Assembly (NCBI GenBank): GCA_937958265.1
Contig: CALGNX010000027.1
Coordinates: 1-55,431 of the forward strand
DNA length: 55,431 nt
Origin: an uncultured Algibacter sp.
GTDB lineage: Bacteria > Bacteroidota > Bacteroidia > Flavobacteriales > Flavobacteriaceae
Direction of reading: 5' to 3'
Shown: positions 52,081 through 55,431 of the stretch, piece after piece
Position numbering within the stretch: the first letter of the stretch is position 1
How the letters are laid out: each line of letters starts with the position of its first letter
Notes under the pieces: model-generated
What the model was told of the DNA's origin: nothing
The model's database searches: none
What the model saw: the letters and a program-made list of their open reading frames with translations, nothing else
Translations under genes and position numbers: made by a program

Positions 52081-55000
52081 TTAAGAGGCTTCTACAATAG
52101 CGATTTCCTCGTCGGTTAGCTCGTATAATTTGTAGACCATTTGGTCTATTTCTTTGTCGGTTTGCTGTATTTGTGCTTGTAAGGCTTGTGCCTCGGCTTT
52201 TTTGGTTTCAAACACATCCATCCAATCCATTTCTTGGGTTTTGGTTAGTGTGGCAAGGGGCTCAAGCCCATTGTCCCTGCGGGGCTTGTTCTCTTTTTTT
52301 ATGGCTTTGTTTAGCTCTTTTATAAATTCGCCAAATGCTAACTCGTGCCAGTTTTGTAGCTTTTTGGGTAGTTTTTGTATAGGGTATTGGGATTGGAGGT
52401 ATTTTTGGAATTTGTTTGAAGAAACTATAAGTTCATTGATAACTTTAATTATAAAATTAACCTTATTAATTAATTTAACTTTTTCTTCTTCATCACACAT
52501 TACAATTGGTAATTGCTTTAATAATCTTGAGTTAAAACTAGGATAACTTTTATTATTACTTTTAGGGGATTGCTCATTTACATAATATGTAAACAAATTC
52601 GAATTAAGTAAAGCTAGCAAAAATTTAATAGGATAACTTTCCTTTTTTTCTGTAATTACAGCTGCAATATTCTTAACCACAGCTGGTTTTTCTATATATG
52701 TAGCAAATATCCTTGGATTAATTATCTCACGAATAACTAGCTTAGGTTTATCAAAAAATTCCTTCTTTCTAGGTTCTGCTAACCATTCTCCATAAGATAT
52801 GTATTCACCTTGTGATTGATATGAATATCGGTTTATTCCCTGAGAAACATAGGGATAATTAAATACGGAACTAAAAATATTTGAAATAAATATATCTTCT
52901 TTTTTTTCATAATCAGTTTGCTTAGGTTTACCTTTTCCTTTTTGATAAGTTTTAACCCCCATTACTTGATTATAAACTTCAATTAAAGGGACTGTATTAT
53001 TAGATTTTATAATACTATCAATTACTATAAAAGTTTCTTCAACTTTTGGTTTGTTGATTATAAATTTATTTTTGTCTATTAAGCAGTTTGGCTTTTCAAC
53101 AGCATTAGTGTTTGATAAATCAAGAAAAAAATATTCACTAGCAGAATAGCCTTTATTATTTAATAAAATAATTGATGTTGGAAGATTTACTTCTTCAAAT
53201 ACATCATCACCCATTTTTATATTAATTATGCATTTAAAGTTTTCTGAAGTAAATATTCTTAAGTCTTTAAAATATTCTTTTTCTAAGTAGGAATCGGGCA
53301 TTATATATCCTAAAACTCCATTTTTCTTAACCAGTTGAGTGCCCAATTGAATAAAATATTTATAAGAATCAATATTTCCAAAACTCGTTGCTTTATAATG
53401 CTTTTTTAACCAGGTTTTATTATCCAATTTGGCCCCATAAGGCGGATTCCCAATCACCACATCAAAGCCACCTTTGTTTTGAATGGCAGTTTCAAAAGGC
53501 ACACAAAGGGTGTTGTTTAGTGCAGCAATGGGCTTAAGCCCATTGTCTACAATGGTTTTGCCCCAGCGTTCGCTATGTTTAGGTACGTTTTTGGTAATAT
53601 AATCTACCACATTAGTAACCTGTGTAGCCTCGGCAGGCACAGTTTTGCGGTGAAATTTTTGCGCCCAAACTTTATGTTCGCCTTTGTTCCATTTTTTGTA
53701 GCGCTGAAACTCGTAAGATGTAAAACCTTTTAGCTTTCTAATTTGCTCGTTAAGTTCGGTTTCGTTATTGGCAGTACAAAGCAAATGCACATGGTCTGGC
53801 AATACGGTAAAACTAACCGTAGGGATGTTGTACTTGCTAATGCCTTCGCCCATTAAGGCAATCATTTTGGTATAATCGTCGTCTTTAAACGCAAAAGGCT
53901 GTAAATCTTTAATAAATTCTGGCGGGTTAAAAGCCACCATCCTGTCGGATATTCTAGAATTATGCGTTACAAAAGTGACTAAAAAAAGCTGTTTGGGTGC
54001 TTTGTTAAACACCTTAGGAAACTGGGTTTCCCAATGAAACGCTTTATCGCCCGCAACCGCTTTACTATCTATTAAGCTGTTACCACATTTAATATTATTG
54101 TTTAGGCTGTTTAGTTTACGGCGGGGTTGGGCAGTACGCAACCACAGGGAGAGTTTGGCAATTTCTACAGATTCCTCGTTAAGGTCTACCCCAAAAATAT
54201 TGTTTTCTAAAACCGTATTTTCTATGTTAGGAAACACCAAACCACCGCCTAATAAATTGGTTTGTAGCTCATCTACATAACGGTGTTCTTTAATTAAAAA
54301 ATCTAAGGCTTGGTTTAAAAAAGCACCCGAGCCACAGGCAGGGTCGCAAATGGTAAGTTGCAATAGCCACTCGCGGTAGCTTTCTAGCGCGGTAAGTAGT
54401 TTCTTTTTGGTTTCCTTTTGGCGTTTGGGGTTAAAATCGGCTTCAATAATAGCAAGCTCGGTTTTCTTTTCTTCACATAATTTACCTATTGTATTATCTA
54501 CAATGTATTTGGTAATGTATTTTGGGGTGTAAAATACGCCGTCTTTTTTACGTTTTGTTTTCTGCTTATCAAAAGCAACGCCTTCAATTTCGGCGTTTAC
54601 ACTTTCAATTTCGTTTAACGAATTTTCGAAAATATGCCCTAAAATATTTACATCTACTTGGCTTTCAAAATCGTAATCGGATAATGTTTTGGTGTGTTTG
54701 TAAAGTAACGCGTCGGTTAAAATTAAAGAATCTAAAATCGGGTCGGGTTTAAACAAACCGCCATTATAGGCAAATATTTCGGCTTTTTTATCGGTGCCTT
54801 TTCTACCTTCGTCTAAATATTTAAAATAGAGTTTAAAGCGGTTGTATAGTGGGATATCGGTATCTAAATCTTTTAGCTTGTCCCAATCTTGTAGAATACG
54901 TACGGTGGAGTTTGGGGGCAGTAAACCTCTGTCTTCGGCAAAGAAAATAAATAAGAAACGGTCTATTAATTTCTGCGATTTTTTAAACAGATGCTGTTTT

Positions 55001-55254
55001 ATGTTTTTGTTGGCACGCTCGCTGTCTTCCTTTTGTAATTCGCTTCTAAACACATCGTTTTTCATGTTTAGTTTTACCAAATCGCGAAACAGCTCGCGTT
55101 TAAACACCGAATAATCGTTGTAAAAGGTTTTGGTAATTTTTTCTTCTTCAACAACCGAATCGGTTTTTATAGTAAGCGGTATATTGTTAAGTACATTGTC
55201 TTTTTGCAAACACAAATACAGCAATTCAAATTGTGGTTTGGTAAGAGTAAACAA
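52081..55254 (-). CDS. Eco57I-like type IIG DNA methyltransferase with an inserted Y1/HUH transposase domain, N-terminally truncated
   Basis: A 1057-residue protein related to type IIG restriction-modification enzymes (adenine methylation). The helical connector runs from residue 1 to about 250 (RFLFIFFAEDRGLLPPN, DVNILGHIFENSLNEIE, KDGVFYTPKYITKYIV). The SAM motif I is DPACGSGAFL at 304-313 and the catalytic NPPY is at 603-606. Between them, residues about 418-590 form a Y1-type transposase domain: FLVTFVTHNSRISDRM, DHVHLL at 487-492 (HUH residues H488 and H490) and Y552 in VVDYITKN. The C-terminal part is the target recognition region. The start is TTG; the frame runs open back to a stop at 55306, where an IS982-like remnant begins. 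The expected N-terminal nuclease part is missing, probably lost to that insertion. Confidence 0.8.
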   Translation of the reverse strand: MFTLTKPQFELLYLCLQKDNVLNNIPLTIKTDSVVEEEKITKTFYNDYSVFKRELFRDLVKLNMKNDVFRSELQKEDSERANKNIKQHLFKKSQKLIDRFLFIFFAEDRGLLPPNSTVRILQDWDKLKDLDTDIPLYNRFKLYFKYLDEGRKGTDKKAEIFAYNGGLFKPDPILDSLILTDALLYKHTKTLSDYDFESQVDVNILGHIFENSLNEIESVNAEIEGVAFDKQKTKRKKDGVFYTPKYITKYIVDNTIGKLCEEKKTELAIIEADFNPKRQKETKKKLLTALESYREWLLQLTICDPACGSGAFLNQALDFLIKEHRYVDELQTNLLGGGLVFPNIENTVLENNIFGVDLNEESVEIAKLSLWLRTAQPRRKLNSLNNNIKCGNSLIDSKAVAGDKAFHWETQFPKVFNKAPKQLFLVTFVTHNSRISDRMVAFNPPEFIKDLQPFAFKDDDYTKMIALMGEGISKYNIPTVSFTVLPDHVHLLCTANNETELNEQIRKLKGFTSYEFQRYKKWNKGEHKVWAQKFHRKTVPAEATQVTNVVDYITKNVPKHSERWGKTIVDNGLKPIAALNNTLCVPFETAIQNKGGFDVVIGNPPYGAKLDNKTWLKKHYKATSFGNIDSYKYFIQLGTQLVKKNGVLGYIMPDSYLEKEYFKDLRIFTSENFKCIINIKMGDDVFEEVNLPTSIILLNNKGYSASEYFFLDLSNTNAVEKPNCLIDKNKFIINKPKVEETFIVIDSIIKSNNTVPLIEVYNQVMGVKTYQKGKGKPKQTDYEKKEDIFISNIFSSVFNYPYVSQGINRYSYQSQGEYISYGEWLAEPRKKEFFDKPKLVIREIINPRIFATYIEKPAVVKNIAAVITEKKESYPIKFLLALLNSNLFTYYVNEQSPKSNNKSYPSFNSRLLKQLPIVMCDEEEKVKLINKVNFIIKVINELIVSSNKFQKYLQSQYPIQKLPKKLQNWHELAFGEFIKELNKAIKKENKPRRDNGLEPLATLTKTQEMDWMDVFETKKAEAQALQAQIQQTDKEIDQMVYKLYELTDEEIAIVEAS
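52254..52273. repeat. REP-like palindrome, imperfect copy
   Basis: Matches the perfect palindrome at 53526-53545 in 18 of 20 bases, within the 3' part of the same coding region (protein DNGLEPLATL). Confidence 0.65.
53526..53545. repeat. REP-like palindrome, perfect 20 bp
   Basis: caatgggcttaagcccattg is its own reverse complement. It is translated as part of DNGLKPIAAL directly after the inserted Y1 transposase domain, the place where REP elements sit next to RAYT genes. Confidence 0.75.
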
Positions 55255-55305
55255 ATTAAACTCTTCAAAATCGACCGCATTATTTATGTAAAAACCTGAG
55301 TTCGA

Positions 55306-55431
55306 TTAATACAAAGTAAGTTGGTTTTTATTAACGGTTCGATATTTTATAGATGGTTTTTTAGGCAAAAAGCTATAAGCAATAAGACCTGCCACGATAT
55401 TTGATAAGAAGTTAGTAAAGCTTCTATGTCT
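55306..55431 (-). mobile_element. IS982-like transposase, C-terminal fragment (cut by the window edge)
   Basis: The last 41 codons of a DDE-type transposase: RHRSFTNFLSNIVAGLIAYS, FLPKKPSIKYRTVNKNQLTL and Y before the stop. This ending is typical of IS982-like transposases of Bacteroidota as I recall them; other DDE families are possible. The stop (55306-55308) is followed on the minus strand by TCGAACTCAGGT, likely the IS end near 55294, and by coding sequence of the methyltransferase in the same frame. Confidence 0.65.

Follow-up and report, generated by a model that had tools for sequence, protein, structure and literature searches.

The window, which is the whole stretch of 55,431 nucleotides analysed here (Algibacter sp. 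contig CALGNX010000027.1, assembly GCA_937958265.1, genome 2.9 Mb), carries a methyltransferase gene with a putative transposase domain inside its reading frame. The host open reading frame (ORF) occupies positions 52081-55254 on the minus strand, as do all features of the gene given below, and stays open for 1057 amino acids from a TTG start codon. It encodes an N6-adenine methyltransferase of the Type IIG (Eco57I) kind, truncated at its 5' end. Pfam assigns Eco57I (E 2e-35), N6_Mtase and TaqI_C to the ORF, with Y1_Tnp between the two methyltransferase halves, and the PADLOC Type IIG model PDLC03609 matches at E 1.5e-195, the best stretch beginning at model position 154. The Type IIG features present are the gamma-type N6A motifs, namely motif I DPACGSG (residues 304-310; 54325-54345) and motif IV NPPY (residues 603-606; 53437-53448), both located by translation and alignment, plus a TaqI_C specificity domain found by Pfam (residues 806-917; 52504-52839). 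Structural matches of the full-length protein model include BrxX/PglX, CamA, BseCI, MmeI and TaqI.

The guest and the host gene it occupies

The guest is a Y1/HUH domain resembling the REP-associated tyrosine transposases (RAYTs; REP, repetitive extragenic palindromic). It spans 177 amino acids (residues 417-593; 53476-54006). Pfam Y1_Tnp (PF01797) covers residues 456-555 with E 1e-10 and 42.2 bits against a cut-off of 23, and NCBIfam REP_Tyr_transpos matches residues 472-560 with 49.4 bits, under its curated cut-off of 80. The HUH motif D487-H488-V489-H490 (53785-53796) and the predicted nucleophile Tyr552 (53599-53601) were assigned through translation and alignment, and 62 residues separate H490 from Y552. 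A sequence-only reading of this DNA had placed a Y1 domain in frame between motif I and NPPY, naming H488, H490, Y552, the 62-residue spacing, motif I and NPPY 603-606, and every one of these positions holds. At the level of sequence, both remaining active sites of the window protein keep their motifs.

The guest is predicted to fold as a domain of its own. A model of the isolated domain reached a mean predicted local distance difference test (pLDDT) score of 93.7 and a predicted template-modelling score (pTM) of 0.87, and its top solved match in Foldseek was 4er8, a REP-associated tyrosine transposase with its REP hairpin (E 4e-6, TM about 0.5), followed by ISDra2 and IS608 TnpA. A profile search with the guest domain returned the same families, ISDra2 now heading the nine matches and 4er8 closing them. 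Within the window genome, PF01797 matches once, inside the host ORF, and no multi-copy stand-alone transposase unit was found there.

The 5' end of the host gene is damaged. Full-length relatives carry a near-invariant VIELKGT in an N-terminal segment, and the window copy starts downstream of it. By alignment and genome search, the N-terminal nuclease domain present in relatives is missing from the window protein; relatives' N-termini searched against the window genome (one query, E up to 10, in a possibly incomplete assembly) gave the stump at this locus as their sole match. In place of the expected 5' portion, the end of a repeated element lies at 55284-55431 (no strand assigned), insertion-sequence-like by its repetition. 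Six other contigs carry long copies (five at 98-100%, one at 87%), a seventh has a 42-base match, and two of the other contigs start with the repeat. A 41-amino-acid frame inside it has no Pfam match. Because the repeat also stands on other contigs, the window contig breaks at 55431. The missing N-terminal segment, together with the repeat in its place, marks the window copy as a truncated Type IIG gene, and with the nuclease domain gone, the window allele may be in decay.

Spread, insertion site and origins

Relatives of the domain were collected by scanning one genome per species with two catalytic motifs as patterns, which yielded 80 loci, the best 80 of 85. Motif I and GGFDxxxGNPP lie on both sides of Y1 in one frame at 52 of the 80, including loci from isolates, for example Algibacter pectinivorans (L074); one flank is present at 10, where the contig ends or the frame breaks, and neither at 18. 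The 62 loci with at least one flank come from Bacteroidota (54), Chlorobiota (2) and, with one each, Omnitrophota, Balneolota, Fidelibacterota, Ignavibacteriota, Pseudomonadota and Melainabacteria. Among the 18 flankless loci, three (L044, assigned by Pfam, and L045 and L047, assigned by likeness) are C-terminal fusions to CobB-like CbiA/GATase_3 proteins, one has Y1 inside a Type ISP specificity domain (L046) and one has Type IIG pieces on either side in a broken frame (L058). The other 13 appear to be stand-alone, among them L066, directly behind a frame that we name threonine-dehydratase-like. Searches of the window Y1 against phages and of one Y1 from the main Type IIG clade against plasmids gave no match. 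Judged from these loci, the arrangement is recurrent and widespread rather than the single new case that had been proposed.

This distribution also bears on the possibility of an assembly or annotation artefact. The gene does stand at a contig end beside a repeat, but the guest and both flanks lie within the contig, and the same architecture, with both flanks in one frame, recurs at the 52 loci, the A. pectinivorans isolate among them. As an explanation of the chimera itself an artefact is refuted, and we regard it as very improbable overall.

When the window protein was aligned with 36 of its embedded counterparts, drawn from 42 long embedded ORFs pre-filtered for the DHxH motif, motif I, NPPY, D-H-x-H, W530 and Y552 proved invariant. 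HxH is present in 83 of 83 rows (79 by the pattern, 4 as DHAH), these rows being 79 of the 80 loci, the window and three copies from its family. The tyrosine stands in its motif in 74 of 80 open frames; L058, L061, L104, L106 and L113 stop before it or are broken, and L121 has cysteine instead. The host gene itself was found in 55 of 397 genomes of the window's family, as 61 copies (E up to 1e-40), of which 6 contain Y1 and 55 lack it. All six of these long inserts, which were recruited through the host and not through the domain, contain HxH, and no other family copy has an insert longer than about 20 residues.

In the window protein the guest is flanked by FPKVF on the left and KGGFDVVIGNPPY on the right. 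Most relatives have just two residues at this site (such as EK, KK or AN), between FPxxF and GGFDVVIGNPPY, and a few have a different short insert, in place of the charged linker that the sequence-only reading expected in related enzymes. The letters AACAAAG stand at both the left junction (54000-54006) and the right junction (53472-53478), a coincidence that chance could produce. Three of the 55 Y1-less family copies (L152, L153 and L155) carry another palindromic repeat, of the SLRGTKQS type, in frame exactly at the Y1 site, which marks the site as an insertion hot spot. Two stand-alone Y1 frames, L110:3687-4451 and L105:5699-6361, open with a host-like left flank (KTFDWYKEFRQIF and IPQVF, respectively). 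Searches of these two loci by tblastn with two host proteins found no host gene, and the flank may be one carried along or a relic.

Phylogenetic analysis indicates more than one origin of the inserts. In the domain tree, the main Y1 clade spans many Bacteroidota lineages, and the window Y1 clusters with the CobB-fused Y1s (99/96), apart from that clade. A single origin of the window and main-clade inserts was rejected when the two were constrained together (p-AU 4e-5, for a group named after inspection of the tree). A quick tree of the host, with 118 rows, requires 19 changes in Y1 presence, or at least 14 by the starred branches; three rows have very long branches, and these counts combine gains with losses. 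Pairwise comparisons are consistent with exchange. Y1 is 88% identical between L088 and L108 (synonymous divergence, dS, 0.43), whose host N-terminal halves are 69% identical with saturated dS, and 80% identical between L082 and L116, whose host halves share 59%; the reverse case is L088 and L115, with 77% for Y1 and 96% for the host half. On these identities, the domain has moved between diverged hosts.

The embedded Y1 domain is under purifying selection. Its ratio of nonsynonymous to synonymous divergence (dN/dS) is 0.06-0.31 by the Nei-Gojobori method over those of the 60 most similar pairs listed that have a defined dS, pairs that are non-independent, and the domain has therefore been kept as a protein and not as a spacer alone.

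The C-terminal specificity halves of these hosts are frequently exchanged. Among pairs whose N-terminal halves are at least 84% identical, the 67 residues after NPPY fall below 60% identity in 35 of 41 pairs with Y1, compared with 278 of 285 pairs without it, the latter including two pairs that represent one gene. A role of Y1 in driving this swapping is rejected, since swapping is also common without Y1, which is thus not needed for it. Pairs such as L149/L159 and L092/L180 have N-terminal halves 98-99% identical on unrelated C-terminal halves, with the break at NPPY, with or without Y1. As the host family is so mosaic at NPPY whether or not Y1 is present, homologous recombination is likely the vehicle that spreads established guests. 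Recombination alone does not account for different Y1 lineages at one site.

Related fusions also occur in other genes of the phylum. In a sample of 395 genomes, searched with a Y1 query built mostly from Type IIG inserts, the matches listed include 14 in frames of at least 400 amino acids, all in restriction-modification (R-M), methylase or RecG genes. Six are Type IIG at the same site (G000, G416, G420, G439, G446 and G581), as expected from the query. The other eight comprise three HsdR genes, three DUF1156-type methylases (one, L260, assigned by likeness to L261 alone), one N6_N4 methylase and one RecG, and their Y1s are other RAYT types, six with NHVH and two with DHVH, all with YIxxNP. 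At L257:3-1556, a RAYT of another type stands in frame ahead of the C-terminal part of a RecG helicase at a contig end. A second alignment added one embedding, located ahead of motif I of an Eco57I gene (G654). Most listed matches of its RAYT type lie in short, stand-alone-sized frames, so that embedding is a minority fate for this type; where found, it is in genes assigned to R-M or DNA processing. The R-M bias is drawn from one phylum, and the CobB fusions of the 80-locus set are its exceptions.

Such a bias could reflect domestication, in which Y1 would serve as a working R-M module that, for example, nicks or binds hairpins of phage or plasmid DNA in single-stranded form, with the palindromes described below as its signals or leftovers. 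Purifying selection, the kept motifs, the retention of the main clade across many Bacteroidota lineages and the nature of all 14 listed long-frame hosts speak for this explanation. Against it, 55 of the 61 family copies manage without Y1, different Y1 lineages occupy one site, Y1 is fused also to the cobalamin enzyme CobB, and REPs pile up in the gene itself. Of the two possibilities in the sequence-only reading, a domesticated RAYT or a mobile guest, the mobile guest fits best because of independent acquisition, the many copies without Y1, exchange between diverged hosts and the several unrelated host genes; domestication is a less probable rival.

REP-like palindromes in and around the host gene

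Two REP-like palindromes lie in frame in the window gene. The first, CAATGGGCTTAAGCCCATTG (53526-53545), encodes NGLKPI just behind the Y1 core, and the second, the imperfect CAATGGGCTTGAGCCCCTTG (52254-52273), encodes NGLEPL in the C-terminal part. In the 2.9 Mb window genome, the strict pattern CAAKGG-N8-CCMTTG matches at these two sites alone, both in the host ORF, so the high-copy REP dispersal typical of RAYTs is not seen over this genome. All four strict matches of G072 fall inside a stretch of 6.2 kb surrounding its Y1. The pattern itself is not rare, as 246 of 397 family genomes have at least one match and some up to 13, most of those listed not being full palindromes. In-frame REP-like palindromes are present in 6 of 6 family host genes with Y1 and in 0 of 55 without (Fisher's test about 2e-8, with related genomes); the REP counts leave out perfect hairpins of a different kind, which were seen in 3 of the 55 genes lacking Y1 and in 1 of the 6 carrying it.

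Across the 80 loci, palindromes concentrate at the domain and its frame. Of 164 palindromes, 57 fall in Y1 (1.59 per kb), 70 in the rest of the frame (0.38), 29 within 1 kb (0.21) and 8 farther away (0.018), whereas mononucleotide-shuffled loci contain none. The Y1 frame holds a palindrome at 70 of 80 loci. The consensus reads (A)AC-AAGGGG-N6-CCCCTT-G(TT), and 102 of 156 cores are perfect palindromes. An 18-nucleotide core is found in 123 of 127 in-frame palindromes, with the three codon positions used 51, 2 and 70 times. At L114 (Subsaximicrobium), eight in-frame palindromes of the REHAPL type stand in a row between HUH and Tyr.

Palindrome cores are locus-specific: copies at one locus agree, and other loci have other cores. 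Leaving aside the tandem-like L114, 60 of 142 within-locus pairs at 40 loci have identical cores against 6.5 expected (maximum 19 in 5000 shuffles); with L114 the figures are 73 of 170 and 8.2. Outside the frame, 19 of 36 palindromes share their core with an in-frame copy. This pattern bears on a further explanation, in which the guests would be inert passengers, harmless past insertions kept merely since frameshifts would kill the host. The tolerance of the site, which accepts another palindromic repeat in the three Y1-less copies, suits that idea, but the agreement of cores within loci and not between them, the low dN/dS with kept motifs and the more than one origin make it improbable.

The sequence-only reading had described a RAYT-like methyltransferase/Y1 chimera with REP-like DNA. 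That description is supported, with the predicted catalytic residues of both parts kept, although it overlooked that the palindromes are in frame, that the gene is truncated at its 5' end and that related fusions occur in other genes. The chimera is real as judged from aligned genes and, in intact relatives, possibly bifunctional.

A probable mobile in-frame guest and its place among known systems

Comparative analysis establishes, within the reach of sequence data, the anatomy, the motifs of both enzymes, selection on Y1, repeated acquisition at one site and the concentration of REP-like palindromes at the host gene. The reading we favor, with a probability of about 0.6, is that a RAYT-like Y1 transposase, together with its REP-like hairpins, forms an in-frame, unspliced guest in a Type IIG methyltransferase gene. 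The guest lies in a turn that follows the first half of the methyltransferase fold and precedes NPPY, and it is translated within the host protein. By analogy with TnpA-REP and the IS608 relatives, for which this is known, Y1 may nick and rejoin its own hairpins on single-stranded DNA, spreading REPs, and rarely Y1 itself, to nearby DNA. Survivors would be frame-keeping products in tolerant loops only. Residence in an R-M gene could supply expression and shelter, and established copies probably also spread through recombination among alleles of a much-shuffled R-M family.

Several results weigh against this reading. The full-length model is of moderate quality (pLDDT 76.8, pTM 0.44), and motif conservation is partly ascertained because the scan patterns included both catalytic motifs. 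Recombination at the site, frequent among family copies whether they carry Y1 or not, could yield much of the patchiness without transposition. No REP was found in the Y1 ORF at 10 of 80 loci. The GT[AG]G foot or guide of known RAYT substrates was rejected as a shared feature, being near only 8 of 156 palindromes. A loose palindrome search of the window genome, allowing two mismatches, gave 14 matches against 14 in the reversed control, and strict palindromes alone were therefore counted afterwards.

A broader interpretation, which we rate an even bet, extends the in-frame guest to a general life style of RAYT/REP elements, as unspliced guests in working enzymes that are repeatedly acquired while their REPs spread mainly in cis. 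The hosts would be above all R-M and DNA methylase genes, and the repeated acquisition covers several Y1 types, several host families and the Type IIG site taken by more than one lineage; if it is true, a single protein would act both as a methyltransferase and as a transposase. The literature searched, mostly titles and abstract openings with few subscription journals, does not describe this life style, and among the matches listed none concerned a Y1 domain inside an R-M gene. The empty site, the hairpins in the same gene and the two kept active sites offer a direct test of RAYT movement, cutting and R-M use. If the guest is as proposed, this is an architecture in which one polypeptide could modify and rearrange DNA.

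With TnpA of the IS200/IS605 elements (IS608 and ISDra2), the window domain shares the Y1 fold and the predicted catalytic residues, but its genome has one PF01797 copy, in frame within a host gene. Type IIG enzymes of the PDLC03609/Eco57I kind likewise have motif I, NPPY and TaqI_C, whereas the window protein has a guest between motif I and NPPY and no nuclease domain. Inteins are in-frame guests at catalytic stretches with a patchy distribution. The window guest resembles them in all three respects, yet Pfam finds no splicing domain in the host ORF, and the guest would remain in the protein.

To our knowledge, RAYTs have seldom been observed jumping as genes, and we know of no established use to the host. 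The window domain shares with RAYT/TnpA-REP the Y1 fold, the HUH and Tyr residues, 4er8 as best structural match and palindromes beside and inside the gene. It differs in being embedded in another enzyme, and its hairpin foot is (A)AC/G(TT), not GT[AG]G. Its Y motif, YIxxN..KH, fits no subclass signature in the available portion of PMC6006769. According to the same portion, subclass 2.4 tnpA-REP genes contain in-frame REPs, and unexpectedly long proteins were discarded in that survey, which suggests caution for surveys that discard such transposase proteins. The accessible part of PMC3733652 describes, for the Rickettsia RPE and for GTAG and CGTC REPs, palindromes within genes, a good number of which serve DNA replication and repair. 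Short in-frame palindromes in genes are common to those intragenic elements and the window, with the difference that here the likely transposase itself stands in frame in the same gene.

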